Below, one piece after another: positions 19,833 through 39,274 of a stretch of 64,000 nt of DNA (its first letter is position 1; each line of letters begins with the position of its first letter). Location: contig JALORN010000005.1 in assembly GCA_025458905.1 (NCBI GenBank), positions 62,001-126,000 of the forward strand, read 5' to 3'. The notes beneath the pieces were generated by a model, which made no database searches, was not told the DNA's origin, and saw only the letters and a list, made by a program, of their open reading frames with translations. The position numbers and the translations under genes are program-made. Origin of the DNA: Steroidobacteraceae bacterium (GTDB taxonomy: Bacteria; Pseudomonadota; Gammaproteobacteria; Steroidobacterales; Steroidobacteraceae).

Positions 19833-20683
19833 TGGCCGGATGGACCTGGCCGAACGGCGCGCGCCTCGCGCTCTCGCTGGTCGTCAACGTGGAGGAGGGC
19901 GCCGAGTTCAACGTCCGCGACGGCGACCGCGGGCCCGACCCGGTCGACGAGCTCGGCATCGTGCTGAAGAAGCCGGTGCGCAACTTCGGCAACGAGAGCA
20001 ACTACGAGTACGGCATCAACGAGGGCGCGCCGCGGGTGCTGCGCCTGCTCGCCAAGTACCAGCTAAAGGCGACCTTCACCGCCGCGGCGGTCGCGCTGGA
20101 GCGCGCGCCGCAGGTCGCCGCCGGCATCGTCGAGGGCGGCCACGAGGCCTGCGCCCACGGCCATCGCTGGGCCCACCAGATGGGCATGGACGAGGAGAAG
20201 GAACGGGCCTTCATCCGCGCGGCCGCCGACAGCATCGAGAAGACCACCGGTACGCGCCCGGTCGGCTGGCTGTCGCGCTACCTGCACACGCCGGACACGC
20301 GCCGCATCCTCGCCGAGGAGGGCTTCCGCTACCACATGGACGACTTCAGCCGCGACCTGCCGTTCGTCGACCGCAGCGTCTCGCCGGCGATGGTCGTCGT
20401 GCCCTATGCGCTCGACTCCAACGACATGAAGATGTGGAACGCGCCGGCGTTCATGCCGCGCGACTGGCTGGGCTACTGCAAGGACAGCTTCGACTGGCTG
20501 TACGCGGAAGGCGCGCAGGGGCCGCGGATGATGTCCCTCGGCGTGCACCTGCGCATCATCGGCCGTCCCGGTCGCATCGGCGCCTACGAGGAGTTCCTGC
20601 GGCACGCCGCCGCCACCCGCCACGTCTGGATCGCGACGCGTCGCGAGATCGCCGAGCACTACGCCCGGGTCGCCGCGGGCTGA
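19832..20683 (+). CDS. Polysaccharide-deacetylase-superfamily protein, PuuE-like
   Basis: A 283-residue NodB-fold metal-dependent amidohydrolase. The pattern LSLVVNVEEGAEF, the CAHGHRWAHQMGMDEE region (HxxxH-type metal ligands) and LHTPDTRRILAEEGFRYHMDD resemble PuuE allantoinase and related cyclic imide/amide hydrolases rather than chitin deacetylases. Expected reaction: hydrolysis of a C-N bond in a small cyclic amide or N-acyl group. The start overlaps the SDR stop by one base (TGATG), so the two are coupled and probably act on the same substrate. Confidence 0.85.
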   Translation: MAGWTWPNGARLALSLVVNVEEGAEFNVRDGDRGPDPVDELGIVLKKPVRNFGNESNYEYGINEGAPRVLRLLAKYQLKATFTAAAVALERAPQVAAGIVEGGHEACAHGHRWAHQMGMDEEKERAFIRAAADSIEKTTGTRPVGWLSRYLHTPDTRRILAEEGFRYHMDDFSRDLPFVDRSVSPAMVVVPYALDSNDMKMWNAPAFMPRDWLGYCKDSFDWLYAEGAQGPRMMSLGVHLRIIGRPGRIGAYEEFLRHAAATRHVWIATRREIAEHYARVAAG

Positions 20684-20741
20684 TCGCGCCGCGCGGGCGC
20701 GCCCGGCCCCGCAGCCTCGCGCCACCGCGCGTGGCGCCTGC

Positions 20742-22121
20742 TCAGCGCTCGAACGCGAGCTGCGCCTCGACCGCGGCCGCGAGCTGGCAGAGCCGCAGGT
20801 CGTGGCCGGCGCGCCCGACCAGCTGCAACCCGACCGGCAGCACGCCCGTCGGTACGGGCAGGGGGATCGACGCGGCAGGCGCGCCGCTCGCGCTCGCGAT
20901 CGCGGTCAGGTCGGCAGTGTTGTGCGGGTGTCGTTCGCCGTGTGGGAACGCGGTGCAGGCGACGGTCGGCATCACGATCGCCTCGTACGGCGCAGTGGTC
21001 GAGTTCCATTCGCCGACGAAGGCCGCGATGCGCTGCTCGGCCGCAGCGAGGTCCTCGTCCGAGAGCCTGCCGCCGTAGCGGATGAAGGCCCTCAGCCCGT
21101 CGGAGAAGTCGTCCGGGGTGTCGACGACGCGCTGGTGGTGCACCCGCCACATCTCGCGTTCGCAGAGCGCGAGGATCGCGCGCCGCACGCGTGCGAGGTC
21201 CCAGCGGCGCAGGTCCACCGGCACCAGCTGCGCGCCGAGCGCACGCAGCGCCGAGATGCCGCGGTTGTACGCCGCCACCACCTCGGGACCGACCGCGAAC
21301 TCGCCGAGGCCGACGGCGTATCCGAGGGTCACCCGCGCAGGGTCGGCAGCCCGAGGCGGCGCCAGCTGCACGGGGAAGGAGACGCGGCAGGCCGGGTCGT
21401 GGCCCGCGATGGCTTGCAGCAGCGGCGACAGGTCGCGGGCGGTGCGCACGATGGGCCCGACGTGGTCGAAGCGCAGGTGCACCGGCACGACACCCGAGAG
21501 GCTGACGAGGCCCGAGGTCGGCTTGAGCGAGGCCGTGCCGCAGAACGCCGCCGGGATGCGCAGCGAGCCGATGGTGTCGGAGCCGAGTGCCAGGGTGCAG
21601 TGCCGGGCCGCGATCGCGGCGGCCGAGCCGCTGCTGGAGCCGCCCGCGGAGTGCCCGGCACGTTGCGGGTTGTGCGTGACGCCGTACCACGGGTTCATGC
21701 CTTCGGCCCCGAGGGCGCCCTCGTCCATGTTGGTGGCCCCGAGCAGCACGACCCCCGCGGCCCGCAGCCGCGCGACGGCGAACGCGTCCTCGGCCGCGAA
21801 ATCCGCGGCACGGAAACGCAGCCCAGCGGTGTGCGGCCAGCCGGCCACCGCCAGGTTGGCCTTGATCGCGGCCGGCAGGCCGTCGAGCGCGCCGCGCAAG
21901 GCGCCGCGTGCGCGACGCTCGTCCGCAGCACGTGCCGCAGCGCGCGCGCCGGCGGCGTCGACGAAGGTCCAGGCGCCGAGCGCGGGGTTGTCGCGCGACA
22001 GTGCACCGAGGCAGTCCTCGACCAGCTCCAGTGAGCTGAACTCGCCGCGTCGCAGCGCGGCGGCCGCGTCTGCAGCGTCGAACTCGCGGGGCGAGGCGGG
22101 CGGGCGGGCCTGCGGTGTCAT
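20742..22121 (-). CDS. Amidase (amidase-signature family)
   Basis: A 459-residue AS-family amidohydrolase. The Ser-cisSer-Lys triad region is visible: Lys in PAAIKANLAVAG, the Gly/Ser signature GHSAGGSSSGSAAAIAA, and the nucleophile region GSDTIGSLRIPAAFCG, giving hydrolysis of an amide to acid and ammonia or amine. Length is normal. It is in line with the PaaK-like ligase and PrpD-like genes (same strand, 72-bp gap) but may have its own promoter. Relatives include GatA-like and aryl/acyl amidases; the substrate is unknown. Confidence 0.9.
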   Translation of the reverse strand: MTPQARPPASPREFDAADAAAALRRGEFSSLELVEDCLGALSRDNPALGAWTFVDAAGARAAARAADERRARGALRGALDGLPAAIKANLAVAGWPHTAGLRFRAADFAAEDAFAVARLRAAGVVLLGATNMDEGALGAEGMNPWYGVTHNPQRAGHSAGGSSSGSAAAIAARHCTLALGSDTIGSLRIPAAFCGTASLKPTSGLVSLSGVVPVHLRFDHVGPIVRTARDLSPLLQAIAGHDPACRVSFPVQLAPPRAADPARVTLGYAVGLGEFAVGPEVVAAYNRGISALRALGAQLVPVDLRRWDLARVRRAILALCEREMWRVHHQRVVDTPDDFSDGLRAFIRYGGRLSDEDLAAAEQRIAAFVGEWNSTTAPYEAIVMPTVACTAFPHGERHPHNTADLTAIASASGAPAASIPLPVPTGVLPVGLQLVGRAGHDLRLCQLAAAVEAQLAFER

Positions 22122-22192
22122 GGTCCCATTCTCTCACGGCGCCATCGGTGGACGCGGGCCGTCCCCCACGCGCGGCGCGGTGCCGCGCGGCT

Positions 22193-23608
22193 TCAACGAC
22201 CGCCGGCCTTGGGCCGCTCGTCGATCAGCCGGATCGGCTTCTGCCGGCTCTCGATCTGCGTCAGCGGGGCGGTACCGCCCGCCGCGACCAGCTCCACCTT
22301 CAATTCGACTCCGACCCGGCGAGTCAGCAGGTCGGCGAACGCCTTGGCGAGCGCGTCGTTGCGCTCGAAGGCCGGACGGGTCTCGACGATCACGGTGAGG
22401 TCGTCGCGACCGGTCGGCAGGTCGCGCGTCGCGCGGCAGACGTACTCGCCGGCGAACTCGGGACGGTCGTTGAGGATCGCCGCGAGCGCCAGCGGATAGA
22501 CGTTGATGCCGCGCAGCTTGACCATGTTGTCGCTGCGACCGAGCACGCCGACCACCCGCCGCAGGTTGTAGCCGAGCGCGGAGCGCCCGTCCTTCCACGC
22601 GGACATGTCGTGCGTGTTGAAGCGGATCAGCGGGTAGACGTCGTCGCGGTACAGCGAGGTGACGACCATGTCGCCCGGCGTGTCGCCCGCGACCGGGCGG
22701 CCGCTCCCCTCGTCGACGATCTCGAGGTACTGCGCGTCCTCCATCACGTACATGCCGTCCTGGTCCGGCCCTTCCGCTGCGATCGGGCCAGTGTCGGCGA
22801 CGCCGTACCAGTCACTGACCTGGGCGCCGCCCCAGGCGCGCGACAATGCGGCGCGCGACTCCCGGCCGACGTGGCCGAGGATCGCGCGCACCGGCAGATC
22901 GCGCCCGGGTTCGAGGCCCATCTCGCGCGCCGTCTCGGCGAGCTGGCGGATGTAGTCCACGAAGCCTACGAGCACCGTCACCCGCAGGTCGCGCATCAGC
23001 TCGACCTGCGTCACCGAGCGCGTCTCCTTGCCGGTGCCCGCGGACAGGAACAGGCAGTTGGTGTAGTGCAGCGCCGCCTCCCGCACGAAATGCCCGCCGT
23101 TGATCATGCCGTGGCCGTAGACCGAATGGACCACGTCGCCCGGGCGCAGGCCCTGCATGCGCCAGATCCGCGCGACCAGCAGCGCCTGCACCTCGCGCGA
23201 CTTGGGGCTGAACAGCACGACCTGCGGGCGCCCGGTGGTGCCGCTGGTGGTGTGGATCACGGTGACGGGGCGGTGCTCGGGCGTCCACTTGTCCCAGCCG
23301 TGGTAGTCGCCGTAGGGCGGGTGCTCGGCGAGGCTCTTCATGAGCTCGGACTTGCCGAAGATCGGCAGCCGGCCGAGGTCGTCGAGGCCGCGAACGTCGC
23401 CCGGCTCGATCCCGGCCCCGCGCCACAGCCGCTGGTAGAAGGGGATCTCCCAGGCGCGCGCGACGCAGCGACGGAACAGAGCGTCCTGGCGCGCGCGGAT
23501 CTCGTCGGCGGAGAGCCGGGCGTAGCGCTCGGTGAAGTCGTCGCCGACGGGGAAGTCGCGCAGCATCTGCGCGTAGTCGAAGGATTCGTAGTAGTGCGGG
23601 AAGCTCAT
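22193..23608 (-). CDS. PaaK-like AMP-forming acyl-CoA ligase
   Basis: A 471-residue adenylate-forming enzyme related to phenylacetate-CoA ligase. Motifs in order: FYQRLWRGAGIEPGDV near the N-terminus, P-loop TTSGTTGRPQVVLFSP (about residue 115), YGVADTGPIAAEG (A5-type motif), YPLIRFNTHDMS, and the hinge LGRSDNMVKLRGINVYPLA followed by a small C-terminal lid. It activates an aromatic or aliphatic carboxylate to its CoA thioester. ATG 23608 overlaps the stop of the MmgE/PrpD gene by 4 nt (ATGA), so the two are co-translated. Confidence 0.9.
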   Translation of the reverse strand: MSFPHYYESFDYAQMLRDFPVGDDFTERYARLSADEIRARQDALFRRCVARAWEIPFYQRLWRGAGIEPGDVRGLDDLGRLPIFGKSELMKSLAEHPPYGDYHGWDKWTPEHRPVTVIHTTSGTTGRPQVVLFSPKSREVQALLVARIWRMQGLRPGDVVHSVYGHGMINGGHFVREAALHYTNCLFLSAGTGKETRSVTQVELMRDLRVTVLVGFVDYIRQLAETAREMGLEPGRDLPVRAILGHVGRESRAALSRAWGGAQVSDWYGVADTGPIAAEGPDQDGMYVMEDAQYLEIVDEGSGRPVAGDTPGDMVVTSLYRDDVYPLIRFNTHDMSAWKDGRSALGYNLRRVVGVLGRSDNMVKLRGINVYPLALAAILNDRPEFAGEYVCRATRDLPTGRDDLTVIVETRPAFERNDALAKAFADLLTRRVGVELKVELVAAGGTAPLTQIESRQKPIRLIDERPKAGGR

Positions 23609-24996
23609 GCGCGCGTGTGATCCGGGAAGACGAGCAGGTCGACGAGGGCGCGCACGTCGGGCAGCTCCTCGAGCCGCCCGACGAGCGCGATCAGGGATTC
23701 GATGCGCGCCGGCGGCAGCGGCACGAGGCCCGAGGCCGCGGCGGTGCGGAACTTCGCGAGGTGCCGCTCGCGCCCGAGCGGCCGCCCCGGTGCGCCGAGC
23801 ACGGCCGGCAGGTCGAGCGCGAGGCGCCGGCCGTCGCGCAGGTCGACCTCGACGCGCTGCGGCGCGAGCGCGTTCAGCGAAGGGTTGCCGTCGTGCTGCA
23901 CGCGGATGCGCGCGGCGAGCGCGTGGCGCGCCGTGTCGCGCAGCGCCGCCGCGTCGAAGTCCTCCACCGACACCGTGCCGCGCAGCAGCGCCGTCGCGGC
24001 GACGTAGGGCAGGCAGAGGCGGGCGTAGGAGGGCGCCATCTGCGGCGATGGCGGCCGGTCGACGAGCTGGATCACGAGCGGCGGCGCGAGCACGCGGATC
24101 GCCTCGATGTCGTCGGTCGCGAAGCCGTGCTGCTGCTGCAGCGAGAGCGCGCCGTCGACGCCGCCGTGGGTGGCGCGTCCGCTCGGGAACGGCTTGTGCG
24201 ACAGCTCGGCGACCCGGTGCACCCGGCCGAGCCCGGCGAACGGTGCCGGGTCCCAGTCGTGGTCCATCAGCGCGAAGTAGCCGAAGGGACCCTCGAGGAA
24301 CTCGCCGGGCCCGACGATGCCGCGGCAGGCCATGTCGACCGCCACCAGCGCAGCTCGGGTGTTGAAGCCGATCTGCATCGGCAGCACCGGCGAGCCCTCG
24401 ACGTGCGCCTGCATGGTGCCGGAGAGCTGGCTGTAGGCGAGGCCGAGCGCGCTGCGGGTGGTCGCCGCGTCGAGCCGCAGCATCGCCGCGATGCCGGCGG
24501 TGGCGCCGAGCGCGCCGCACATCGCGGGCCGGAAGAAACGCAGCTTGTTGCGCGCCGCGGCGCCGATGGTCGCGGCGACGTCGACTGCTACCGAGCAGCC
24601 GAGGACCAGGTCGCGGCCGTCGACGCCGCCGCGCGCCTCCGCCCAGGCGAGCAGCGTCGAGAGCACCACGGCCATCGGGTGCACGACCGCCGGTTCGTGG
24701 ACGCAGTCCCACTCCTGGTTGTGGATCTGGTAGCCGTTGACGAACGCGGCGCTCGCGGCGGGCACGCGCTCGCCGGTGCCCCAGATCCTGCAGTCCTCGC
24801 CGCGGCCCCAGGCGGCGGCCACCGCCTTGAGCTCCGCGACCATCGGCACGCGCGTGCCCGACAGCGCGACGCCGAGGCTGTCGAGCACGAAGGTGCGGAC
24901 CGCTTCGAGCGCTTGCGGTGGCAGGCCGTCGAAGCGCTGCGAGGTCACGTGGGCGATCAGCGCATCGGTGACCGAGCCGGTGTGGCGGGTGCTCAT
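23605..24996 (-). CDS. MmgE/PrpD family protein
   Basis: A 463-residue member of the 2-methylcitrate dehydratase/immune-responsive gene 1 superfamily. Characteristic stretches: DSLGVALSG near residue 40, VNGYQIHNQEWDCVH, a Gly/Ala helical bundle with GALGATAGIAAMLRLD, and SHKPFPSGRATHGGVDGAL. Family members dehydrate 2-methylcitrate or decarboxylate cis-aconitate to itaconate; distant homologues act on other hydroxy acids. No prpB/prpC is nearby, so propionate use via methylcitrate is not supported here. It is upstream in the same operon as the PaaK-like ligase (ATGA overlap). Confidence 0.87.
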   Translation of the reverse strand: MSTRHTGSVTDALIAHVTSQRFDGLPPQALEAVRTFVLDSLGVALSGTRVPMVAELKAVAAAWGRGEDCRIWGTGERVPAASAAFVNGYQIHNQEWDCVHEPAVVHPMAVVLSTLLAWAEARGGVDGRDLVLGCSVAVDVAATIGAAARNKLRFFRPAMCGALGATAGIAAMLRLDAATTRSALGLAYSQLSGTMQAHVEGSPVLPMQIGFNTRAALVAVDMACRGIVGPGEFLEGPFGYFALMDHDWDPAPFAGLGRVHRVAELSHKPFPSGRATHGGVDGALSLQQQHGFATDDIEAIRVLAPPLVIQLVDRPPSPQMAPSYARLCLPYVAATALLRGTVSVEDFDAAALRDTARHALAARIRVQHDGNPSLNALAPQRVEVDLRDGRRLALDLPAVLGAPGRPLGRERHLAKFRTAAASGLVPLPPARIESLIALVGRLEELPDVRALVDLLVFPDHTRA

Positions 24997-25163
24997 GGGA
25001 TGAAGAGGAGGTCCTGTCCGCGGGCGCGCGCCATGCTATCAACGGCCATGGAACTGCGTTCCCGAGGCCGGCACCCGACCACCTAGCGGAGCGCGCGAAC
25101 CGGTGTGGGGGGCGGTGCGCGGCAGTGGCTTGTCTCCCGCGCGATCGGGGCGAGAATGCAGCC

Positions 25164-26420
25164 ATGAGCACACCCCGGATCGATTGCGCTCCGCCCTGGA
25201 GCGACGTTGGCCGGCACGCGATGTCGCCCGAGGCGGGCCACGACGACGTTGCGCGCTTCAACTTCCTCGCGAACTTCAACAAGTACATGTCGTCGGTCGT
25301 GGTCGGCGGCAACGCGGTGGCCTACGAGTCGCGGGTGCGCCCCCGCTGGGAAGCCGAGCACGGCCGGCCGCCGCGCGACCGGCGCGAGATCCGCGCGGCG
25401 ATGTCCTCCGACCCGTACTACCGCATGTGGAGCTCGCTGAGGCGCTCCGCGATGGAGATGCGCCAGCAGGCCGGGCGCTCCCTGGTGCTGCGCCAGGCCG
25501 AGTCGCTGCGCGACCGTGCGGCCGCGCTCAATGCCGGCGCCGACACGCTGCGCCTCGATGCCTCGCTGGAGGTGCCGCGCTACCAGGCGGCGATCGACAA
25601 CCACTGCATGCCCGGGAGCTACTTCGCCGAGTACCTGCCGGGGGACGTGTCGGCCGCGGCCAACTACGACGCCGGCATGTTCGCGACGACGACCGGGTTG
25701 TTCGGCCGCTTCCTCGACGGCGCCGGCCGCGGCGTCGCGGAGTGGCTGGCGCGCGTGCGCCCGGGCTGGTCGCCGCGGCGCATCCTCGACCTCGGCTGCG
25801 GCCTGGGACACAACACCGTGCCGGTGGCGCGCGCTTACCCACGGGCCGAGGTGGTCGCGATCGACCTCGCCGCGCCGATGCTGCGCTACGGGCACGCCCG
25901 GGCGCGCGGCATGGGGGTGGAGAACGTCACGTTCATGCAGGGCAACGTCGAGCGCCTGCCGTTCGCCGACGGTCACTTCGACTTCGTGTACTCGACGATG
26001 TTCTTCCACGAGACCTCGCACGGCGCGCTGCGGCGGATCCTGCGCGAGGCAGATCGGGTGCTGGCGGGCGGCGGGCTGCACATCCACCTCGAGCAGCCTC
26101 CGTACCGAGGCATGGACGAGTTCGAGAAGTTCCTGCGCGACTGGGACTGCTACCACAACAACGAGCCATTCTGGACGACGCTGCACGACACGCACCTGCC
26201 GACCCTGCTCGGCGAGCTCGGCTTCCGCGGCGACCGGGTGTTCGAGACCCAGATCCACGCCATCGTCGAGGACGAGATGCCCAAGGTCGCCGGCGAGGTC
26301 GAGGACTACGGTCGCGGCGGCATGTGGTATGCCGTCGGCTCCGAGCGTGCCCCGTTCGACGCGTGGCGGGGCGATGCCGCCGGCGCAGATGGGCCGGCGC
26401 CTGGCGGGCCCGCGCGATGA
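25164..26420 (+). CDS. Class I SAM-dependent methyltransferase
   Basis: A 418-residue protein. The SAM-binding core begins about residue 210: ILDLGCGLGHNTVPVA (motif I), VVAIDLAAPMLRYG (acidic loop), FMQGNVERLPFADGHFDFVYS (motif II/III). The first about 200 residues form a separate helical region (FNFLANFNKYMSSVVVGG, PYYRMWSSLRRSAMEMRQ) that I cannot name. ATG 25164 is chosen because the frame upstream lacks protein character. It ends ATGA-coupled to the small coiled-coil gene and then to the dehydrogenase, so the methyl acceptor is probably part of the same pathway. Confidence 0.88.
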   Translation: MSTPRIDCAPPWSDVGRHAMSPEAGHDDVARFNFLANFNKYMSSVVVGGNAVAYESRVRPRWEAEHGRPPRDRREIRAAMSSDPYYRMWSSLRRSAMEMRQQAGRSLVLRQAESLRDRAAALNAGADTLRLDASLEVPRYQAAIDNHCMPGSYFAEYLPGDVSAAANYDAGMFATTTGLFGRFLDGAGRGVAEWLARVRPGWSPRRILDLGCGLGHNTVPVARAYPRAEVVAIDLAAPMLRYGHARARGMGVENVTFMQGNVERLPFADGHFDFVYSTMFFHETSHGALRRILREADRVLAGGGLHIHLEQPPYRGMDEFEKFLRDWDCYHNNEPFWTTLHDTHLPTLLGELGFRGDRVFETQIHAIVEDEMPKVAGEVEDYGRGGMWYAVGSERAPFDAWRGDAAGADGPAPGGPAR

Positions 26421-26776
26421 ACCCGGACGACGTGCTGCGACTCGCCAACGCAGCGCCCTCGGGCAAGCGGCCGCACTTCTTCGCCGATGCCGACGTCGAC
26501 CGACTGCTGGCGATCGTGTGGGCGATGGCCGGCGAACTGGCGGTGACCCGCGAGCGGCTCGACACCGTCGAGCGGCTGCTGGACGCGAAGCAGACCCTGG
26601 CCCGCGCCGAGATCGAGGCCTACCGCCCCGACCCGCAGGCGGCGCGCGAGCGTGGGCAGATGCAGCTCGAGTACATCGCGCGACTGCTGCGCGTGTTGCA
26701 GCAGCAGGTCGAGGCGATGCAGCGCGGCATCAGCGAGTCGGCCGAGGACGTGGCGCGCGAGGTCGGGGCGAAGTGA
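26417..26776 (+). CDS. Small predicted coiled-coil protein of unknown function
   Basis: A 119-residue protein starting inside the methyltransferase stop (ATGA) and ending inside the next start (GTGA). Residues 16-30 hold GKRPHFFADADVDRLL; the rest is helical with heptad-like Leu/Val (WAMAGELAVTRERLDTVERLL and YIARLLRVLQQQVEAM). There is no signal peptide or catalytic motif. Tight coupling on both sides suggests a subunit or chaperone of the flanking enzymes. I cannot name the family. Confidence 0.75.
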   Translation: MNPDDVLRLANAAPSGKRPHFFADADVDRLLAIVWAMAGELAVTRERLDTVERLLDAKQTLARAEIEAYRPDPQAARERGQMQLEYIARLLRVLQQQVEAMQRGISESAEDVAREVGAK

Positions 26777-27432
26777 ACGCGCTGGGCACGCGCCTCGACC
26801 AGGCGGAGGCCCTGGTCGGCGAGGCCTTTCGCCACCTGAAATCCCGCTGCAGCCGCGACGGTCGGCTCGATGCCGCCGCGCTGGACGCGGTGCAGGTGCC
26901 GAGCTACGACCTCGCGTTCTGCGCCGCCGAGCTGGCGGCGGCGCGGGCCGTGCAGTCCTGGGCCGGCGACGAGTCGCCGCGCGACCCGTACGCGGCGACG
27001 CTCGCCGGGGTGTTCACGGTGGAGGTGCTGGCCGCGATCGCGGGCCGGCTCCTGCTGCGTCCCGCCGACTTCGGTCTTGCGCCCGGCAGGGTCGCTGCGA
27101 TGCATCCGTCGTCCGGGGAGGCGTTGCAGGCCATGGTCTCCGGGGAGGCGCTCGCGGCCGCCGGTCGTACGCTGCTCGAGCGCGACGGCCGCCTGCCTTC
27201 GCCGCGGCTCGGCGACGACAAGGACCTGATGCGCGAGTCCTTCGCGCAGTTCGGCGCCGAGGTCGTCGCGCCGCAGGCCCAGGCGATCCACCGCGGCGAC
27301 ACCGACATCCCCGAGCACATCATCGCCGGCGCGGCGGAACTCGGCCTCTTCGGCGTCTCGATCCGCTGGCGATGCTGGTGGTCACCGAGGCCCTGTCGGC
27401 GGCCTCGCTCGGCGCCGCAGGCAGCCTCGTGA
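26773..27432 (+). pseudogene. Methylsuccinyl-CoA-dehydrogenase-like acyl-CoA dehydrogenase, N-terminal part (frameshifted)
   Basis: The frame opens at GTG 26773 (GTGA overlap with the previous gene) and is homologous to acyl-CoA dehydrogenases up to FGVSI at about 27363, after which 23 unrelated residues lead to a stop at 27432. The long N-terminal domain (about 150 residues, with YDLAFCAAELAAARAVQ and LRPADFGL) before the dehydrogenase core matches what I recall of (2S)-methylsuccinyl-CoA dehydrogenase (Mcd), which is longer than ordinary family members. The core then reads FAQFGAEVVAPQA and AAELGLFGVSI, where the family continues PE-x-YGG. That motif is missing: about 9-12 codons are deleted and the frame changes. 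The rest of the gene is 27372-28364. Confidence 0.7.
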
Positions 27433-28364
27433 CGCGGCCCGAGATCATGGCGCGCGCCCTGCTCGCCGGCGGCACCGAGGCGCAGCGCGGGTACTGGCTG
27501 CCGCGCCTCGCCTCGGGCGAGGCGCTGTGCGCGATCTCCATCACCGAGCCGGACCACGGCTCCGACGTCGCCAACCTGAAGCTGCGGGCCACGCGCCGTG
27601 ACGGCGGCTGGGTGCTCGACGGCGCCAAGACCTGGTGCACCTGCGCCGGGCGCGCCGACGTGATCCTGGTCGTCGCCCGGACGCGGCCGGACCCGGCGCT
27701 CGGCCACCGCGGACTGTCGCTGTTCATCGTCGGCAAGCCGCGCTTCGCGGGGCACGAGTTCGAGCATGCGGGCCCCGGCGGCGGTCGGCTCACCGCGCGT
27801 GCGATCCCGACCATCGGCTATCGCGGCATGCACTCGTTCGACCTCTTCTTCGAGGAGTTCTTCGTGCCCGATGCCGCGCTGGTCGGTGGGCCGGAAGGCG
27901 AGGGCCGCGGGTTCTACCTGACGATGGCCGGCCTCGCCGGCGGCCGAGTGCAGACCTCGGCGCGCGCCAACGGCGTGATGCAGGCGGCGCTCGATGCGGC
28001 GCTGCGCTACGCGCAGTCGCGCCGCGTGTTCGGCCAGCCGATCGCCGCCTACCCGCTGACGCAGGCGCGCCTGGCGCGGATCGCCGCCTGGCTGACGGCG
28101 TCGCGACAGTTCTCGTACGCGGTGGCACGGCAGATGGACGAGGGCGGCGGCGAGATGGAAGCGAGCCTCGTCAAGCTCTTCGCCTGTCGGGCCGCGGAGT
28201 GGGTCACCCGCGACGCGATGCAGGTGCACGGCGGCCTCGGCTACGCCGAGGAGACCGCGGCGAGCCGCTATTTCGTCGACGCCCGCGTGCTGTCGATCTT
28301 CGAGGGCGCCGAGGAGACGCTCGCCCTCAAGGTGATCGCACGGGAGCTGATCGCAAAGGCCTGA
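27372..28364 (+). pseudogene. Methylsuccinyl-CoA-dehydrogenase-like acyl-CoA dehydrogenase, C-terminal catalytic part
   Basis: This continues the gene above in another frame; homology resumes at DPLAMLVVTEALSAASLG around 27363 and the first ATG is 27372 (330 residues). Flavin and substrate motifs are intact: SITEPDHGSDVANLKL (FAD-binding), GAKTWCTCAGRADVILVV, AIPTIGYRGMHSFDL, MQVHGGLGYAEE, and the Glu region SIFEGAEETLALKVIA where family members carry the catalytic base. As it stands the enzyme would lack its N-terminal half unless the shift is a sequencing error or is bypassed. The TGA stop (28362-28364) is the second to fourth base of a 69-bp inverted-repeat arm. Confidence 0.75.
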
Positions 28365-28531
28365 CCCCACGAAAGAGGAAGAAAGGGAAAAAAGAAAAAA
28401 GGGGACAGATTTATTTTCGCGAAAAAGGGTCTGGGAACAGGATTGCGAAAACAAAATCTGTCCCCTTTTTCGCGAAAATAAATCTGTCCCCTTTTTTCTT
28501 TTTTCCCTTTCTTCCTCTTTCGTGGGGTCAG
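28361..28531. repeat. 69-bp perfect inverted repeat, AT-rich, REPIN/MITE-like element
   Basis: The arm 28361-28429 is the exact reverse complement of 28463-28531, with a 33-nt centre. Arms begin CTGACCCCACGAAAGAGG, run through A-rich sequence, then GGGGACAGATTTATTTTC and the small palindrome TTTTCGCGAAAA. Two further near copies of AATCTGTCCCC lie in the right half and centre. Motifs of this GGGGACAGATTTAT kind are, as I recall, scattered in many proteobacterial genomes, often linked to REP-associated tyrosine transposases; no transposase is present here. AT content contrasts sharply with the rest of the window. Both outer ends contain TGA, which is the stop codon of the gene on each side. 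It may also serve as a two-way terminator. Confidence 0.9.
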
Positions 28532-29556
28532 GGGCTCCAGGCCCAGAACTTCCAGTCGAGGACCAGGGACTCCGGCTCCGGGCTGCCGGGGACGATCGGG
28601 CCGCGGGCGGCGAAGCAGGTGACGTGCAGGCGCAGCAGCGCGCCGCCCGCGTCGCGAGGCGCAGGGCGGATGTCGGTGACGGTGAACTCGGTGCGGAGGC
28701 GGTCGCTCTCGACGACCGGCGCGGTGTGGTCGCAGCTCTCCCAGGCGAGGAGGGTAAGCAGGTTCGGCAGGGCACGGGTCACCTGCGCGAAGCTCATGAA
28801 GATCGTGTGGCCGCCGTAGACGAGCCGCTCGCCGAGGTAGGAGAAGCGCGCGTCGGTGTGGGCCATCGCCATGTTCAGCGAGGTCCGGACCAGTTCCGGC
28901 GCACTGGTGACGGTGTCCCGCGACTCGATGCGAAAGACGTCCCCTGGGCGCAGGTCGGCGGCGCAGCGGCCGAGCCAGCGGCCGGCCGGCCCGAGCGACC
29001 AGCCGCGCGGCACTGCGGCCTGCAGCGCCGCCTCGTCGGTGGCCCGCCCGATCGCGTCGAGGTCGTCCGCATGGCCCGTGTCTGCCGCAGGGTCGCGGCA
29101 GGGGATCATCGGGCAGCGCCAGAAGTGCAGCACGGTCTCCCCGCGCTGGTTCGTCGTGGCCATCTCGAGCGCGACGATGCCGGTGGCCGCACGACCTGCC
29201 TTGGCGGCGTTCTGCCGCAGGCCCACGACGCGGGTGCGCGTGTGCAGCGTGTCGCCGAGGAGCACGGGCCGCTGCAGCACGAGCCCGCGGTAGAAGAGAT
29301 TGGCCTTGACGCGCTGCGATGCCCAGGTCGACTGGCCGATCGCGACGTTGATCGCGAGCAGCGGATGGGCGAGCGGCATCGCCGCGCCGACGATCGCTCG
29401 GCTCGCGTGATGGTCGAGTGGCAGTCGCAGCCGGTCGCCGAACAGCGCCTGGTACTGCGCCGCCATCCCCTCCGTCAGCGTGACCGCGGGCGCGTCGAAC
29501 TCGAGCCCTTGGTGGAAGTCCTCGAACCAGGGTCCGCCGATGTCCAAGATCCGCAT
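28528..29556 (-). CDS. MaoC-type dehydratase resembling 2-methylfumaryl-CoA hydratase (Mch)
   Basis: A 342-residue tandem hot-dog protein. The N-terminal half opens PWFEDFHQGLEFDAPAVTLTEG and continues NLFYRGLVLQRPVLLGDTLHTRTRVVGLRQN; the C-terminal half has HTDARFSYLGERLVYGGHTIF, placing Asp and His as in MaoC hydratases. Length and the ALFGDRLRLPLDHH / VYGGH segments match what I remember of mesaconyl-C1-CoA hydratase (beta-methylmalyl-CoA dehydratase), which interconverts mesaconyl-C1-CoA and beta-methylmalyl-CoA. ATG 29556 has AGGAG 6 nt upstream. The stop lies in the right arm of the palindrome. It follows the Mct-like gene by 40 bp in the same operon. Confidence 0.8.
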   Translation of the reverse strand: MRILDIGGPWFEDFHQGLEFDAPAVTLTEGMAAQYQALFGDRLRLPLDHHASRAIVGAAMPLAHPLLAINVAIGQSTWASQRVKANLFYRGLVLQRPVLLGDTLHTRTRVVGLRQNAAKAGRAATGIVALEMATTNQRGETVLHFWRCPMIPCRDPAADTGHADDLDAIGRATDEAALQAAVPRGWSLGPAGRWLGRCAADLRPGDVFRIESRDTVTSAPELVRTSLNMAMAHTDARFSYLGERLVYGGHTIFMSFAQVTRALPNLLTLLAWESCDHTAPVVESDRLRTEFTVTDIRPAPRDAGGALLRLHVTCFAARGPIVPGSPEPESLVLDWKFWAWSP

Positions 29557-29596
29557 CCATGTCTCCTGCGATCCGATGTCCGGCCCGTCGCTCGCG

Positions 29597-30814
29597 TCAC
29601 GGCCCCGCGACCAGCCCGGCGTCGTGCAACCGGCCGATCTCGGCCGCCGGCAGGCGCAGCACCTCGGCGAGGACCTGGTCGGTATGCTCGCCGAGCCGCG
29701 GTGCGGGACGCGCGTCGAGGTGCGCGGCGCGCGAGAAATAAAGCGGCGAGCCCGGCATCCGGTAGCGCCCGATGCCCGGCTGCTCCTGCACCGTCAGCAG
29801 CGGGTTCGCCGTCGAGGCCTCCGGGTCGCGCTCGAGCAGTTCGCGAACCGTCTGGTAGGGGCCGTAGCAGACGCCGGCGGCATCGAAGGCCGCGGCGACC
29901 TCGGCGTAGTCGCGCGCGCCGATCCACGGCCCGAGCAGCGCAGCGATCGCCTCGCGGCCGAGGAAGCGGTCACGCTCGCGCGCGAAGTCCAGGCCCCGGG
30001 CCCGGCCGGCCGCGGCGAGCGCCGCGGCGAGGCCGGTCGCCTTGCCGAGCCCCGACCACTGGCGCGCGGTCAGCCCGACGACCATCACGCGTCGGCCGTC
30101 GCGGGTCGGGAAGTCGCGGCCGAAGGCGCCGTAGAGGTCGTTGCCGTGGCGCGCACGCTCCTCGCCGTTGACCTCCACCTCGGCGAGCATGCCGAGGTGG
30201 CCGAGCGTCGCCAGCGCGACGTCGAGCAGGGCGAGCTTCACGTACTGGCCCTCGCCGGTGCGCGTGCGGTGGCGCTCGGCGGCGAGCAGGCCGACCGCGG
30301 CCATCTGCCCGCAGATGTTGTCCCAGGCCGGCAGCACGTGGTTGACCGGTCGTGGGTCGTCCGCCGGCCCGGTCAAGGCCGGCAGCCCGACGCGCGGATT
30401 GACGGTGTAGTCGACCTCGGAGCCGCCGTGCCGGTCACCGAGCACGTTGACGTGGATCAGGTCGGGCCGGCGGCGGCAGAGCGCCTCGTACGCCAGCCAG
30501 CCGCGCGCCGGGAAGTTCGTCAGGAACAGCCCCGACTGCCCACCCGGCGCGGTGATCAGCGCAGTGGCGAGTTCCTGGCCCTCGGGCCGCGCGATGTCGA
30601 TCGCGATCGACTTCTTGCCCTTGTTGAGCCCGGCCCAGAAGAGACTGCGGCCCTCCGCCGTCACGGGCAGGCGCTGCGCGTCGAGGCCGCCGCCGGGCGG
30701 GTCGAACCGGATCACCTCGGCGCCGAGCTGCGCCAGCGTCATGCCGCCGAGCGGCGCCGCGACGAAGGCCGAGCCCTCGACGATGCGCAGGCCGTCAAGG
30801 ATGCCGGGCGTCAT
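29597..30814 (-). CDS. CaiB/BaiF CoA-transferase resembling 2-methylfumaryl-CoA isomerase (Mct)
   Basis: A 405-residue family III CoA-transferase. The opening LDGLRIVEGSAFVAAPLGG then MTLAQLGAEVIRFDPPGGG, with GLNKGKKSIAIDI, GDRHGGSEVDYTVNPRVGLP and NDLYGAFGRDF, closely resembles what I remember of Chloroflexus mesaconyl-CoA C1-C4 CoA transferase, which moves CoA within mesaconate. The catalytic Asp position is not assigned with confidence. Start ATG 30814 has GGGAGG 5 nt upstream. The adjacent Mch-like gene strengthens the assignment, but family III members are easily misassigned and another branched C5 or C6 acid is possible. Confidence 0.8.
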   Translation of the reverse strand: MTPGILDGLRIVEGSAFVAAPLGGMTLAQLGAEVIRFDPPGGGLDAQRLPVTAEGRSLFWAGLNKGKKSIAIDIARPEGQELATALITAPGGQSGLFLTNFPARGWLAYEALCRRRPDLIHVNVLGDRHGGSEVDYTVNPRVGLPALTGPADDPRPVNHVLPAWDNICGQMAAVGLLAAERHRTRTGEGQYVKLALLDVALATLGHLGMLAEVEVNGEERARHGNDLYGAFGRDFPTRDGRRVMVVGLTARQWSGLGKATGLAAALAAAGRARGLDFARERDRFLGREAIAALLGPWIGARDYAEVAAAFDAAGVCYGPYQTVRELLERDPEASTANPLLTVQEQPGIGRYRMPGSPLYFSRAAHLDARPAPRLGEHTDQVLAEVLRLPAAEIGRLHDAGLVAGP

Positions 30815-30836
30815 CGCAGCCTCCCGTGCCCGCGCG

Positions 30837-31658
30837 TCATTGCGGCGCCATGCTGCGCCACAGCATCCGCGCCGCGACCACGAACAGGAACATCCCGAAC
30901 AGCCGCGACAGTGCGCGCTTGGAGAGCGCATGCGCGAGTCGCGCCCCGAGCGGCGCCGTCAGCATCGAGCCCGGCGCGATCAGTGCCACGCCGACCAGGC
31001 TCACGAGGCCGACCGTCGCCCACGGCAGGTCGGCCTTCGGCTGCGCCAGCAGGTAGCCGGCGGTGCCGGGCACGCTGATCAGCAGCCCGAACAACGCCCC
31101 GGTGCCCACGGCGCGATGGATCGGCTCGGCGAGCAGCGTCATCGCCGGCACCGAGATCGTGCCGCCGCCGATGCCCATCATCGCCGACACGGCGCCGATC
31201 GCGCCGCTGATCGCGCCGCCGGCGGCGCCCGTGGGCACGCGTCCGGCGAGTCGCAGGTGATCGAGCGGCAGGAACATCTTCACTGCGACCACCAGCGCCA
31301 CCACGCCGAACACCGACGTCAGCACCCGGGCCTGCACCTGCGAGGCGAGCAGGCTGCCGGCGAGTGCGCCGAGCAGCATGCCGGGCCCCCAGGCGCGGGC
31401 CAGCGGCAGGTCCACCGCGCCGCGCGCGTGATGCGCACGCGCCGAGGCGACCGAGGTGGGGATGATGGTCGCGAGCGAGGTCGCGACCGCGACGTGCATC
31501 CGCCACTGCGCCGGCACGCCCGCGAACTGCAGGGCGTACTCGAGGGCCGGCACGATGATGATGCCCCCGCCGACCCCGAGCAGGCCTGCGACCACGCCCG
31601 AGAACAGCGCGGTGCCGAGCATCGCCAGCGCCACCGGCCAGAGGGTCGGGAAATCCAT
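30837..31658 (-). CDS. TauE/SafE family permease
   Basis: A 273-residue membrane protein with about eight helices in two homologous halves. It has the repeated signatures GVVAGLLGVGGGIIIVPAL (residues 17-35) and GAVSAMMGIGGGTISVPAM, which mark the TauE/SafE family of sulfite, sulfoacetate or organosulfonate exporters. ATG 31658 is preferred because the upstream frame is low-complexity. It lies 22 bp upstream of the Mct-like gene on the same strand, so it probably heads that operon, and is divergent from the molybdoenzyme gene. Confidence 0.9.
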   Translation of the reverse strand: MDFPTLWPVALAMLGTALFSGVVAGLLGVGGGIIIVPALEYALQFAGVPAQWRMHVAVATSLATIIPTSVASARAHHARGAVDLPLARAWGPGMLLGALAGSLLASQVQARVLTSVFGVVALVVAVKMFLPLDHLRLAGRVPTGAAGGAISGAIGAVSAMMGIGGGTISVPAMTLLAEPIHRAVGTGALFGLLISVPGTAGYLLAQPKADLPWATVGLVSLVGVALIAPGSMLTAPLGARLAHALSKRALSRLFGMFLFVVAARMLWRSMAPQ

Positions 31659-31749
31659 GCGATCCGTGAACGACGGCGCCCGATGCGCGCCGCGGCGCAG
31701 TCTACGCGAGGCTTCCGCGCCGCCCGCAACACGCCGTAAGCTCGCCACC

Positions 31750-33969
31750 ATGGAGCGGCGTCGATTCCTGCTGGTCTCCGGCCTCGCCGGCTCGTCGTCG
31801 CTGCTCGGGCTGGTCTGGGGCTGCGCGCCGCTGCCTGCGCGGGCGCCCGCCACCTCGAGGGCGCCGGCCGCCGGCGGGATGCCTGCGGGTGCCGCCGCGC
31901 CGCTCGAGGTCGGTGCCTGGCTCGCGCTGGAGCCGGGCGGGCGCGTGCTCGTCCAGGTGCACAAGTCCGAGATGGGTCAGGGGGTGCTGACCGCGCTGCC
32001 GATGCTGGTCGCCGAGGAACTCGACGTGCCGTTCGCGCGCGTCGAGGCGCGGCTGGCGCCGGGCGCGCTGCGCTTCCGCGACGCGCGCGGCAACCAGACC
32101 ACCGGCTACTCGAGCAGCGTCAGCAGCAGCTGGCTGCCGTTCCGTACGCTGGGCGCAGCGGCGCGGGCCATGCTGCTGCAGGCGGCCGCGCTGCGCTGGG
32201 CGGTGCCGGTGGCGCGGCTGCGCACCGAACGCGGCGAGGTGGTCGACGACGGCGACGCCTCGTCGCCGCAGGGCGCCGGCAGGTCGATCGCGGCCGGCGT
32301 CGCGACGCCGCGGCGGCTGCCCTACGCAGCGCTGCTCGAGGACGCGCGCCGGCTGCCCGTGCCGGATGCGCCGCCGCTGAAGGCAGCGGGGCGCTTCGAA
32401 CTGATCGGCTCGCGCGTGCCGCGGGTCGACACGCCGTCCAAGGTGGACGGCAGCGCCTGCTTCGGCATCGACGTGCGCCTGCCCAGCATGAAGACCGCGG
32501 TGGTCGCGCGCTGCCCGCACCTCGGGGGTCGTGCGCGCGGCCACGATCCTGCGCCGGCGCTGCGCGTGCCCGGCGTCGAGCGCGTGGTGCCGATCGGCAG
32601 CGGCATCGCCGTGGTGGCGCGCGACTTCTGGTCCGCCAGCCGCGGCCGCGACGCGCTGGTCGTCGACTGGGACCCGGGTCCCGCGGCCGGCCGCGATTCG
32701 CCGGCCCACGAGCGCGAGCTCGTCGCGCGGCTGGGCCTGCCCGGCCGGGACGCACGGCGCGAGGGCGATCCTGCGGCGCTCGCCGCCGCCGCGGGTGGCC
32801 GCTGGGTGCGCGCGGACTACCACACGCCGTTCCTGGCGCATGCGGCGATGGAGCCGCTGGCCGCCACCGCGAGCGTCGGCGCCGGCCGTTGCGACCTCTG
32901 GCTCGGCACGCAGGCGCCGAGCCGCGCGCAGGACTGGGCGGCGAAGGTCACCGGGCTCGCGCGCGAGCAGGTGTTCGTGCACACGCTGCCGCTCGGCGGC
33001 GCCTTCGGTCGCCGCGGCGAGTGGGACTTCGCCGTCGAGGCGGTGGAACTCGCGCTCGCCTGCGGCGTGCCGGTCAAGGTGGTCTGGAGCCGCGCCGACG
33101 ACATGCGGCACGATTTCTATCGCCCGGCGACCGCGAACCGCCTCGCCGCGCGGCTCGACGACACCGGTGCACTGCGGCTGCTGACGCATCGCGTCGCCGC
33201 GCCGTCGATCGCGCGCCGTCGCAGCCCCGAGGCGCTCGAGCGCGGCCACGACTTCCTGATGACCCAGGGCAGCGCCGACCATCCGTACTCGATCGAGCAC
33301 CAGCTGGTGGATTACCACGAGGTCGACCTCGGGGTGCCGGTGGGTTTCTGGCGCTCGGTCGGTCACTCGCACAATGGCTTCGCGCTCGAGTGCTTCGTCG
33401 ACGAGATCGCGGAGGCCGCCGGGGCCGACCCCTTCGAATGGCGCCGCGCCCGGCTCGATGGCGACCCGCGGCTGCGGGCGGTGCTGGAACTGGCGGCGCG
33501 CGAGTCCGGCTGGGGCGGCGCGTTGCCGCGCGGCAGCGGGCGCGGCATCGCCTGCATGGAGAGCTATGGCACGCGCGTCGCCCTGGTCGCGGAGGTGCGG
33601 GTCGCGGAGGGCGAGGTCGCCGTCCGGCGCATCACCTGTGCAGTCGACTGCGGGCAGGTGGTGCACCCGGGCATCGTCGAGCAGCAGATGGAGAGTGGCA
33701 TCGTGTTCGGGCTCTCGGCTGCGCTGCACGGCGAGGTGACGTTCGCCGACGGCGCCGTGCGCCAGTCGAACTTCCACGACTACCCGGTGCTGCGACTCCC
33801 GGAGATGCCGCGCATCGACGTGCACCGCATCGCGAGCGATGCCGCGCCCGGCGGCTGCGGCGAACCCTCCACCCCGGTGGTGGCCCCGGCCGTCTGCAAC
33901 GCGATCCATGCCGCCACCGGGCAGCGGATCCGGCGGCTGCCGATCCGGCTCGCAACGCGCCCGGCCTGA
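31750..33969 (+). CDS. Molybdopterin-binding xanthine-oxidase-family subunit, IorB-like
   Basis: A 739-residue large subunit of the isoquinoline 1-oxidoreductase/aldehyde oxidase type. It starts with a twin-arginine-like [14 protein letters not shown] and a Cys at residue 26 (LVWGC), suggesting Tat export, perhaps as a lipoprotein. Cofactor stretches visible: [56 protein letters not shown], and [19 protein letters not shown] carrying the catalytic Glu. The usual partner, a [2Fe-2S] IorA-type subunit, is absent on both sides: the neighbours are divergent TauE and a convergent SUMF1 gene. Expected chemistry is hydroxylation of an N-heterocycle or aldehyde using water. Confidence 0.9.
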
Positions 33970-34017
33970 CCCCGGGCGTCGCGCCACGCCACGGGCCGAC
34001 GCGCCGCCTCGCGTCCG

Positions 34018-34977
34018 TCAGCGGCGCGCGAGCGTGGCCGCCTCTGTCTCGTCGAGGTCGCGGGCGAGGCGGAACCCGACATCCTGCAGCGCGTCGGCGC
34101 CAGCGTCGGCGGCGACGTGGTCGCGCGCGGCGCTGCGCGCCATCCACGGCCGCGACAGCCAGGAGCCACCGCGTACGACACGGTGGCTGCACCCCGACCA
34201 CGTCCAGGCGCGTTCGTCCGGCGGGCGGCCCTTGTAGCTGCGCGTGTAGCAGTCGGCGAGCAGTTCGCGCACGTTGCCCACCAGGTCGTGCAGCCCCCAC
34301 GGGTTGGGCGCGAACGAGCCGACCGGCGCCGGCCCGGCGTAGTGGTCCGTGCAACGCGCGTGCGGGACGGGCAGGGCGAGCCCGCGCGCGGCGACGTCGT
34401 AGACGTTGGCGTAGTCGCAGGCGCGCGAGATCGAGACGCCCTCGTGCGAGTCACGATTGCTCCAGAAGCGTGCTCCGCCGGTGCCGGCGCGCGTCGCGTA
34501 CTCCCACTCGGCCTCCGAGGGCAGCCGATAGGCGCGGCCGGTGCGCTGCCCCAGCCAGGCGGCGTAGGCTGCCGCATCCGCCGGGGCGATGCAGCGCGCG
34601 GGAGCGGCCGGCGGTGACGGCGGATCGAGCGCGCAGGCCAGCGCCGGGCGATGGCCCGACTCGGCGACGAAGCGCGCGAACTCGCCCACCTGTACCTCGA
34701 AGCGTCCGAGCGCGAACGGCCGCCGGATCTTCACCGCCAGCGGCGGCGTCTCGCCCGAGCGCTCGTCGTGCTCGTAGGCGTCTGCGGCGGTGCCTAGGGA
34801 GAACCCGCCGGCAGCGACCGCGACCAGTTCGGGGCAGTCCGCGCAGTCGCGCAGGATCGTCGGCGCCGCCCCGTCGGCGCCGCGGGCGAGGGATGCCATG
34901 CCCAGCAGCGCCGTGAGCATCGACGCCTCTGCCAGCCGCGCCAGCCGCCCGCGACCGCGCCGCGCCACGCCGCTCAC
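34018..34977 (-). CDS. SUMF1/FGE-sulfatase-domain protein 2
   Basis: A 319-residue exported protein; GTG 34977 overlaps the stop of the upstream SUMF1 gene (GTGA), and ATG 34920 is the alternative (300 residues). A basic N-terminus then [15 protein letters not shown] is a signal peptide. It then carries [68 protein letters not shown] and HRVVRGGSW: the formylglycine-generating-enzyme-like fold. The reactive Cys pair that true FGEs carry after RGGSW is missing (here [10 protein letters not shown]), so sulfatase activation is unlikely. Similar non-enzymatic members bind ligands or assist surface complexes. Confidence 0.87.
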
Positions 34978-35933
34978 GGCACGTCCCGCGCGACGCGGAA
35001 GCCCGCGAAGTCGGCGCGGTCCTCGTCGTCGCCGTCGCCGTGGAACCCTGGCCGGCTGCGCTCCGGCCCGGTGCTCCAGCCGCCGCCGCGCTGGATGCGG
35101 CGCTTGCAGCCGCCGTCCCAGACCCATGCGCGCTGGTCGGTCGGCCGCCCGAAATAGCTGAGGCTGGCGCAGTCCTCGATCCACTCCCAGACGTTGCCGA
35201 TCATGTCGTACAGGCCGAAGGCGTTGGGGCGCAGGCTCCCGACGGGCGCGACGTCCGGGAAGCCGTCGTCGCAGTCCACCGCGCGCCACGCGAGCGGATA
35301 GCGCGCCATCGTCGAACGGTCGTTGGAGTTCGCGTGGGCACAGTGACGCCGCGGCGACGCGCCCCAGGACTGCAGTGCGCGGCTGCCGGCCTTGGCGGCG
35401 TACTCCCACTCGGCCTCGCTCGGCAGGCGATAGGGCTGGCCGGTGCGCGCCGCGAGCCAGGCGGCATAGGCCCGCGCATCGTGCCAGTCGATGCAGGTCG
35501 CCGGATGGTCGGGACGCGGTGTGGCGGGGACGTTGGGCGCGTCCCAGGCGATCTGCAGGTCCGCGAAACCCTGGCGCGACTCGACCCAGGTGCGGCAGCG
35601 AACGGTGCGCCGGTCGCGTCCGGTGGCGCGCGCGAACTCGGCGTACTCGGCGCGCGTCACTTCGTGGCGGCCGAGCGCGAAACGGCGTTCGATCCGCACC
35701 TCGACGGGATCGAGTTCGGCGGGCACTTCCGTCGGGACCTGCAGCGGCTTCGCGGTCCCCATCAGGAAGCGCCCGGTCGGCACGACCACCATCTCGGGAC
35801 AGGACCCGCAATCGCGGAACGGGGCGCCCGGCCCGATGCCCGGCGCGGCGAGCGCCGTGGATGCGATCAGCCACGCGGCCAGCGTCTGCGCCACTCGCAA
35901 TGTGTGGCAGGGAACGATCCGTGGGCAATTCAT
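34974..35933 (-). CDS. SUMF1/FGE-sulfatase-domain protein 1
   Basis: A 319-residue paralogue directly upstream of, and translation-coupled to, SUMF1 protein 2. Signal peptide about residues 1-30 (VAQTLAAWLIASTALAAPG). It shares the order [81 protein letters not shown] and ADFAGFRVARD. It too lacks the FGE Cys pair after RGGGW. ATG 35933 is chosen for the signal peptide; a longer frame up to 36074 is unlikely. It is divergent from TonB receptor 3 across 205 bp. Confidence 0.88.
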   Translation of the reverse strand: MNCPRIVPCHTLRVAQTLAAWLIASTALAAPGIGPGAPFRDCGSCPEMVVVPTGRFLMGTAKPLQVPTEVPAELDPVEVRIERRFALGRHEVTRAEYAEFARATGRDRRTVRCRTWVESRQGFADLQIAWDAPNVPATPRPDHPATCIDWHDARAYAAWLAARTGQPYRLPSEAEWEYAAKAGSRALQSWGASPRRHCAHANSNDRSTMARYPLAWRAVDCDDGFPDVAPVGSLRPNAFGLYDMIGNVWEWIEDCASLSYFGRPTDQRAWVWDGGCKRRIQRGGGWSTGPERSRPGFHGDGDDEDRADFAGFRVARDVP

Positions 35934-36138
35934 TGCGTCTTGCGTCGCCGCGGGCCCCGTTCCTTGCGCGCGCTGCACGCAGCGCGAGCGGGCGCGTAGC
36001 CACGCCGCAACAGAGGCTTTCGCGTCGGCGAACAGTCTCACCACGTCGTCCGGCGCTGGATATATTGGCATCGTGATCGCTTCTTTCCGCCGCGGCACGC
36101 CGCGTTGCAACGTAGAACGTACACAAGGGGGTCCTGAC

Positions 36139-38691: not shown

Positions 38692-38697
38692 AGGCCC

Positions 38698-38730
38698 GCG
38701 GCGGGCGCCCCTCCCGGGGGTGCCCGCCGC
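38698..38730 (+). terminator. GC hairpin after TonB receptor 3
   Basis: GCGGCGGGC (38698-38706) pairs with GCCCGCCGC (38722-38730), starting 7 nt past the stop. It has no T-run and lies between convergent genes, so it could act on either strand. Confidence 0.45.
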
Positions 38731-38754
38731 GACGCGAGGCCGCGGACGACGCGA

Positions 38755-39162
38755 TCAGCCGGCCTTGCGGCCGGCATTCGGGCCGTACTTCATGTCGACG
38801 TGGCAGATGTGCGAGCGCAGCCACAGCGACAGGAAGTCGAAGAAGGCCTTCTCGACCCGGCCGTCCCCCGCCTCGAAGCGCGCGACGTGCGCCGTGAAGT
38901 CGGCGAGCAGCTTGGCGTGTATCGCCTTGTGGGTCCGCAGGTCTGCATAGCCGATCGACTCGAGGTAGGCCTCCTCGCCCTTGAAGTGCCGGACGGTGGC
39001 GTCGGCGAGCTTCCTGAACAGCCCCTGCAGCTCGGCCTTGCCGGCGCCCGCTCCGGCGCGGTCGTGGATGTCGTTCATCAGGCCGACCAGCACACGGTGC
39101 TCGTCGTTCATCCGTGCGACCCCGACGTCGAAGCGGATCGGATCCCAGGCAAGTACGGTCAT
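38755..39162 (-). CDS. Bacteriohemerythrin
   Basis: A 135-residue single-domain hemerythrin, a di-iron O2-binding four-helix protein. Ligand pattern: WDPIRFDVGVARMNDEH, then RHFKGEEAYLES, THKAIHAKLL and LRSHICHVDMKYG, giving the His/Glu/Asp set of the family. The start at 39162 (MTVLAW) matches family N-termini; an ATG at 39198 would add 12 unlikely residues. It could supply oxygen to oxygenases or act in O2 sensing; the neighbours give no direct hint. It is divergent from thrA. Confidence 0.9.
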   Translation of the reverse strand: MTVLAWDPIRFDVGVARMNDEHRVLVGLMNDIHDRAGAGAGKAELQGLFRKLADATVRHFKGEEAYLESIGYADLRTHKAIHAKLLADFTAHVARFEAGDGRVEKAFFDFLSLWLRSHICHVDMKYGPNAGRKAG

Positions 39163-39256
39163 GGCGCGCGTACCGAGTGGTGGTTCCCAGCGGCTCATCG
39201 GCCGCGGCGCGCCCCGCTGGATGAGGGCTTGTACCTAGCGCCTCGCAGGGCACGGA

Positions 39257-39274
39257 GCGTGACGGGCGTCACGC
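39257..39274. promoter_or_regulatory. 18-bp palindrome between hemerythrin and thrA
   Basis: GCGTGACG-gg-CGTCACGC, perfect 8-bp arms, 95-112 nt upstream of the hemerythrin start and about 145 nt before thrA. A candidate operator of either gene; the regulator is unknown. Confidence 0.4.

Follow-up and report, generated by a model that had tools for sequence, protein, structure and literature searches.

A dispersed family of gene-end inverted repeats that shares its ends with a Y1 transposase gene in a Steroidobacteraceae genome

The 64,000-nucleotide stretch of DNA from a Steroidobacteraceae bacterium analysed here (the window) contains a long inverted repeat between two convergent genes, which belongs to a family dispersed through the genome. 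A transposase gene in the same genome carries the same ends, empty sites are found in congeners, members of the family lie at gene 3' ends, and their arms are nearly perfect. The repeat is probably a REPIN-like copy of TIRYT-type ends, mobilised by the transposase, kept at gene ends as a two-way terminator, and made symmetrical by template switching between its arms.

In the proposed mechanism, the repeat would consist of two inverted copies of the end (AAAAA-GGGGACRGATTTATTTT) of an HUH Y1 transposon of TIRYT type, the transposase gene of which is located elsewhere in the genome. The transposase would mobilise these ends as single-stranded DNA, and copies landing at the ends of transcription units would persist because they disturb little at such sites and act as two-way intrinsic terminators, with an A-tract, a stem, and a T-tract. 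Template switching between the hairpin arms during replication may then keep the arms identical and extend them outward to the stop codons, the expected outcome for each copy being a perfect hairpin with a sequence of its own.

Architecture of the repeat and its flanking genes

The perfect inverted repeat described in the first-pass annotation was confirmed, with arms of 70 nt each (one base more than the 69 reported) that are exact reverse complements separated by 33 nt. The repeat and the genes on either side of it comprise the following features.

26652-28364, plus strand: open reading frame covering the greater part of an acyl-CoA dehydrogenase gene, the 5' portion of which is read in a different frame
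28360-28429, plus strand: left arm, 70 nt, perfect complement of 28463-28532
28362-28364, plus strand: TGA stop of the acyl-CoA dehydrogenase-type reading frame, within the left arm tip
28395-28400: A-tract ahead of the stem and T-tract for minus-strand transcripts, as read from the sequence
28401-28417, plus strand: TIR-type core GGGGACAGATTTATTTT, the family motif
28430-28462: 33-nt loop, which includes the larger part of an additional inner copy of the motif with no counterpart on the left side
28454-28465, minus strand: this additional inner copy of the motif, confined to the right side
28463-28532, minus strand: right arm, 70 nt, perfect complement of 28360-28429
28475-28491, minus strand: mirror core GGGGACAGATTTATTTT, the family motif, mirrored
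28492-28497: T-tract behind the stem for plus-strand transcripts, as read from the sequence
28528-28530, minus strand: TGA stop of the MaoC-like hydratase reading frame, within the right arm tip; its end position is as in congeners
28528-29556, minus strand: MaoC-like/RipB-Ich-like hydratase gene

The element had been called AT-rich, and positions 28365-28528 indeed contain 41% GC compared with 72% for the window. Repeated units within the element were also verified: GGGGACAGATTT occurs at 28401 (plus strand), with its complement at 28454 and 28480, and TTTTCGCGAAAA occurs at 28414 and 28467. Only a single other inverted match of at least 20 identical bases is present in the window, 25 nt long, from 34050 and 56093. 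Folding of 28355-28540 as RNA gives -132.4 kcal/mol (z -16.6, with none of 200 shuffles equally low), and the DNA fold of 28360-28532 gives -89 (z -19.2). This fold, together with the A6-stem-T6 arrangement at a gene end, agrees with the two-way terminator suggested previously, a function predicted here from shape. A simple terminator scan of 20001-40000 returned 1 site compared with 4.4 in shuffles, and it is blind to the element because its loop length is restricted to 3-8 nt. An outward-facing GGGGTCAG at the tip of the element in the window is probably a coincidence.

Both outer tips read CCTGACCCCAC and contain the TGA of the two convergent genes. The earlier suggestion that the element itself carries a TGA at either tip was not supported, as tip sequences vary between copies; among the arms listed, only those of the window and of C33:92598 start with CCTGA. 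Moreover, the hydratase ends at an identical position in all 20 congener loci with a visible end. Since its stop is located as in congeners and the tips are private, the TGA-tip reading is rejected for the window. Other copies do create or carry a stop: in the source genome, the gltB stop is a TAA beside the A-tract of an element, whereas 15 of the 16 congener loci have TGA. At C57:159171 and C84:3305, predicted genes extend into the element.

The dehydrogenase was sought beside the hydratase in congeners, and none of the 21 loci matched within about 1.5 kb of flank (cut in some loci), so the junction in the window looks like a new adjacency. At 27340-27375, the dehydrogenase is spread over two frames, with GLFGVSI in one and AMLVVTEALS in the next, and a frameshift, a small deletion, or an assembly error is therefore indicated.

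Dispersal, placement and the transposase gene

The source genome (4.28 Mb, 109 contigs, 85.8% complete) was searched as a whole, and uniqueness of the sequence is excluded. GGGGACAGATTT occurs 75 times, with 0 matches to the reversed-pattern control, and the variant GGGGACSGATTTRTTTT (GGGGACSG) occurs 50 times, also with a control of 0, which bears out the proposal of a dispersed REPIN/MITE-like family. Merging all listed motif places, including that of the window, gave 69 clusters, 12 of them at contig ends. REPIN-like dimers account for 38 of the 57 complete clusters, in the form of 27 palindromes with loops of up to 10 nt and 11 inverted pairs with longer loops, one of which is the window element; the other 19 have no inverted partner. 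Some of the contig-end clusters are probably halves of one element. By eye, contig ends C27/C67, C41/C90, C49/C80, and C39/C77 have half a palindrome in common, suggesting that the assembly probably breaks at palindrome centres.

When insertion sites were listed against stop codons, as the first-pass annotation had recommended, 65 of the 82 stops facing an element proved to lie within 20 bp of an arm or motif, with genes called by a simple composition score. The complete clusters comprise 26 in convergent, 30 in codirectional, and 1 in divergent settings, and a gene 3' end faces 10 of the 12 at contig ends. In G033, a genome of the same family assembled as one 4.65-Mb contig, 17 of 31 elements are convergent, 11 codirectional, and 3 divergent. 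The elements are thus mostly located at gene ends and have the shape of two-way terminators; termination itself is predicted from sequence.

The first-pass annotation had anticipated a Y1 transposase gene flanked in the same way, and the genome contains one Y1_Tnp match with copies of GGGGACAG at both ends. The protein scores 51.6 bits against Pfam Y1_Tnp (cut-off 23), contains the motifs NHVH, WEGRYK, and YVELNP, and has a C-terminal extension past the Y1 domain. It missed the cut-off of NCBIfam REP_Tyr_transpos (NF047646; 65.8 bits vs 80) and gave zero matches to PDB chains at E 0.01. Downstream of the gene, an inverted variant, GGGGACGG, falls outside the strict GGGGWSAS consensus. At L060 4548-5408 (G000:C84), the reading frame of the transposase enters the flanking motif, which thereby encodes the C-terminal KGTDLI. 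The gene lies after gltD, a position at which 9 of 16 congener loci (L249-L264) have an ordinary terminator of A-tract, C-rich stem, and T-tract.

The distribution of motif and transposase was followed through congeners and the phylum. None of the 23 congeners has the transposase at E 1e-10, and the motif occurs in 2 of them, as one copy each. In a phylum sample of 299 genomes, the motif was found in 60 and a relative of the transposase at E 1e-20 in 111, both counts including the source genome; outside it, the maximum number of motifs is 11. Two genomes of the group f10/g23 have 5 and 9 motifs, with no transposase detected. A scan of named genomes with the transposase returned one distant relative. 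GGGG[AT]CAGA is present in 27 of 30 fetched transposase loci, again including the source genome, and a crude count based on approximate gene ends found the motif on both flanks in 11, on one in 4, and on none in 5, with 10 not scored. The closest relative of the transposase among the 60 motif-bearing genomes is encoded in G033; it is 54% identical, has one in-frame stop, and is bordered by GGGGACAGATCTATTT on either side. Six matches to the transposase are present in G033.

Two sites occupied in the source genome are empty in congeners. The first is the interval between the stops of the citrate synthase gene gltA and its convergent neighbour, where the source genome has an 81-bp palindrome. 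Citrate synthase was searched in 22 congeners, yielding a usable locus in 19; in all 19, the two genes stand together and no element follows the gltA stop, with a single 9-base motif match in one locus. Compared with congeners, gltA of the source genome ends no more than one residue away, and the alignment of its neighbour extends to residues 193-204 of 204. The second site is the gltB-gltD gap, which measures 1-2 nt in all but one of 16 congener loci (the exception has 14 nt), compared with 76 nt, with the motif inside, in the source genome.

Arm symmetry and competing explanations

The arms of this family are nearly perfect and mostly private to each copy. The 27 short-loop palindromes of the source genome hold 8 mismatches in 1239 paired positions, all of them transitions, and 19 are perfect. 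In G033, dimers make up 31 of the 34 clusters; 28 dimers are perfect, and 5 mismatches were counted in 1330 positions. When 16 centres of the source genome were compared, 2 of 120 pairs scored higher than the top pair in every one of 100 shuffles, a cut-off under which at least one related pair went undetected (C36:19192 and C102:3861, which differ by one mirrored change). Among 25 loops of G033, 7 of 300 pairs scored 11 or more compared with 1.4 expected, indicating recognisable relatedness for a small number of copies but not for the majority. Centres of 29-34 nt are mostly palindromes in the source genome; in G033, 21 of 31 loops have this length and most loops are not palindromic. A CRISPR-like reading of these loop lengths was set aside and no guide function is proposed, since the available text on REPINs already describes variable spacers of fixed length (PMC3116915). 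Orthologous elements were looked for in nine loci from relatives of G033: one (L348) matched two G033 loci, over 77-83 bases within the repeat, and eight gave no match to G033 loci. Outside the main motif, GGGGACATGCCTATTT or a shorter form of it is present in both arms of 10 of the 31 G033 dimers (L298, L300, L301, L306-L308, L316, L319, L324, and L326).

Among eight related pairs selected by hand, both arms agree in their differences between copies in 6, indels included, which leaves 5 when the count is limited to the 7 pairs showing any difference; in 2 pairs, the differences are not fully mirrored. Such likeness of changes in the two arms suggests copying or homogenisation, and these sequence comparisons point to homogenisation of arms within each copy. 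An established route to this is template switching, in which hairpin arms are copied from each other, as outlined in the excerpts available of PMC8794818 and PMC8604942. Identical stop codons in convergent pairs of the source genome (12 of 16 vs 7.6 expected, permutation p 0.014) lend weak support to arm copying there; in G033, the count is 8 of 14. Long, perfect, private arms are not general, since G121 has ordinary dimers with imperfect centres common to the copies and G153 has short palindromes, with arms of 18-20 bp in 8 of 8 fetched stretches. Other observations that weigh against the proposed mechanism are the 19 clusters lacking an inverted partner, the score of the transposase below the NCBIfam cut-off and its lack of PDB matches, the in-frame stop in the G033 relative, the two f10/g23 genomes having motifs but no detected transposase, and the 3 divergent elements of G033. 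It is conceivable, and can be advanced only tentatively, that TIRYT ends settle in gene-end hairpins and are then symmetrised copy by copy through template switching, even across both stops.

Private outer arms might also be older than the insertion. According to this possible but doubtful account, a dimer enters the centre of an existing palindrome, such as a terminator or an RNA stem; the outer arms are then the old stem, nested shells are insertions into earlier copies, and copying between arms becomes unnecessary. Terminators are located at gene ends, where the elements lie, and nested, centred shells (++--) were found. In G381, one element occupies 65 nt at the tip of the variable stem of an FMN riboswitch (RF00050, 88 bits; L343, G381:C39, 1389-1584), and a second dimer sits in the middle of a 14-bp hairpin immediately 3' of this riboswitch. 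Copies in G360 and G363 (L340, L342) have private outer flanks of 7-8 bp that are mirrored. However, the empty gltA site of congeners shows, by eye, no palindrome like the outer arms of the source genome, which amount to a few bases there, and the outer arm of the window (28360-28400), a 41-nt A/G-rich mirror, is unlike a usual terminator. Insertion into hairpin tips also leaves unexplained why the two arms of related copies have the same indels and substitutions. Because of the G381 elements, it may account, together with arm copying, for part of the private outer arms.

A less probable account does without mobility and treats the elements as host terminators with a conserved protein-binding motif, the arms of which are kept paired by compensatory mutation under selection on RNA. 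Terminator shape and gene-end placement would be expected from it, and compensatory evolution of terminators is described for Bacillus cereus in the accessible part of PMC5381666. This is nevertheless unlikely, given that congeners are almost without copies, that the transposase gene has the same ends, and that empty sites exist. In addition, the 8 arm mismatches would be wobbles for one strand in 3 cases and for the opposite strand in 5, and so give no sign of pairing in RNA from one strand. An assembly or fold-back artefact, a risk raised by the first-pass annotation and suggested by the 109 contigs and the 12 of 69 clusters at contig ends, is very improbable, since the same kind of element is present in the single-contig G033 and the arms adjoin different genes.

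If the more tentative reading, in which ends settle in gene-end hairpins and are then symmetrised, is true, a transposon family makes perfect two-way terminators to order, the sequence differing from copy to copy around a spacer of near-constant length. The family also provides a concrete REPIN-like population for the TIRYT/subclass 2.1 group. With near-perfect private arms present in two genomes, it can be asked in a natural setting whether bacterial hairpins are kept perfect by template switching rather than by selection on RNA, and how mobile repeats turn into terminators.

Relation to known mobile repeats

On sequence grounds, the element is a REPIN-like dimer of a TIRYT end and not a canonical GTAG REP, because the transposase fits TnpAY1 subclass 2.1/TIRYT, for which GGGGWSAS terminal repeats have been published. 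TIRYT, or TIRtron (Di Nocera 2013, PMC3733652), is probably the same group as TnpAY1 subclass 2.1 (Quentin 2018, PMC6006769). In the available portions of both papers, the group is defined by NHVH or NH[YF]H, W[EQ], and a YIELNP-type motif, by inverted GGGGWSAS ends, and by a C-terminal HTH-like domain; the protein studied here has the transposase motifs, and its gene has the flanking ends. Next to subclass 2.1 genes, Quentin 2018 found no REP-like structures, as far as the accessible text extends (PMC6006769). By inspection, each end in the present family is GGGGACAGATTTATTTT without a stem of its own, which differs from the GTAG or CGTC type of REP/RAYT. A literature text search with GGGGACAGATTT and AAATCTGTCCCC returned no related work, judged by title.

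With TIRYT/subclass 2.1 as presented in those portions, the family shares a Y1 transposase (NHVH, WE, YVELNP), inverted GGGG[AT][CG]A[CG] ends, and dispersed copies, many of them dimeric. It differs in its 38 inverted pairs, with 31 more in G033, the arms and centres of which are mostly private, near-perfectly mirrored, and in many cases flush with stops; no description of such arms was found in the consulted sections of PMC3733652 and PMC6006769. REPINs (Bertels and Rainey 2011) are similar in having two inverted conserved ends and a spacer, and the excerpted text states that spacer length and pairing count more than sequence and that compensatory changes are common (PMC3116915), so that a variable spacer of constant length is not new. 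Unlike REPINs, the present elements have no GTAG-type tag and no hairpin at each end, and their arms reach past the conserved end into private flank. Finally, the excerpts on template-switch hairpins (PMC8794818, PMC8604942) describe perfect arms that are made and kept by copying from arm to arm, a property resembling that seen here, where it is joined, unlike in those hairpins, with a transposase-associated repeat family.
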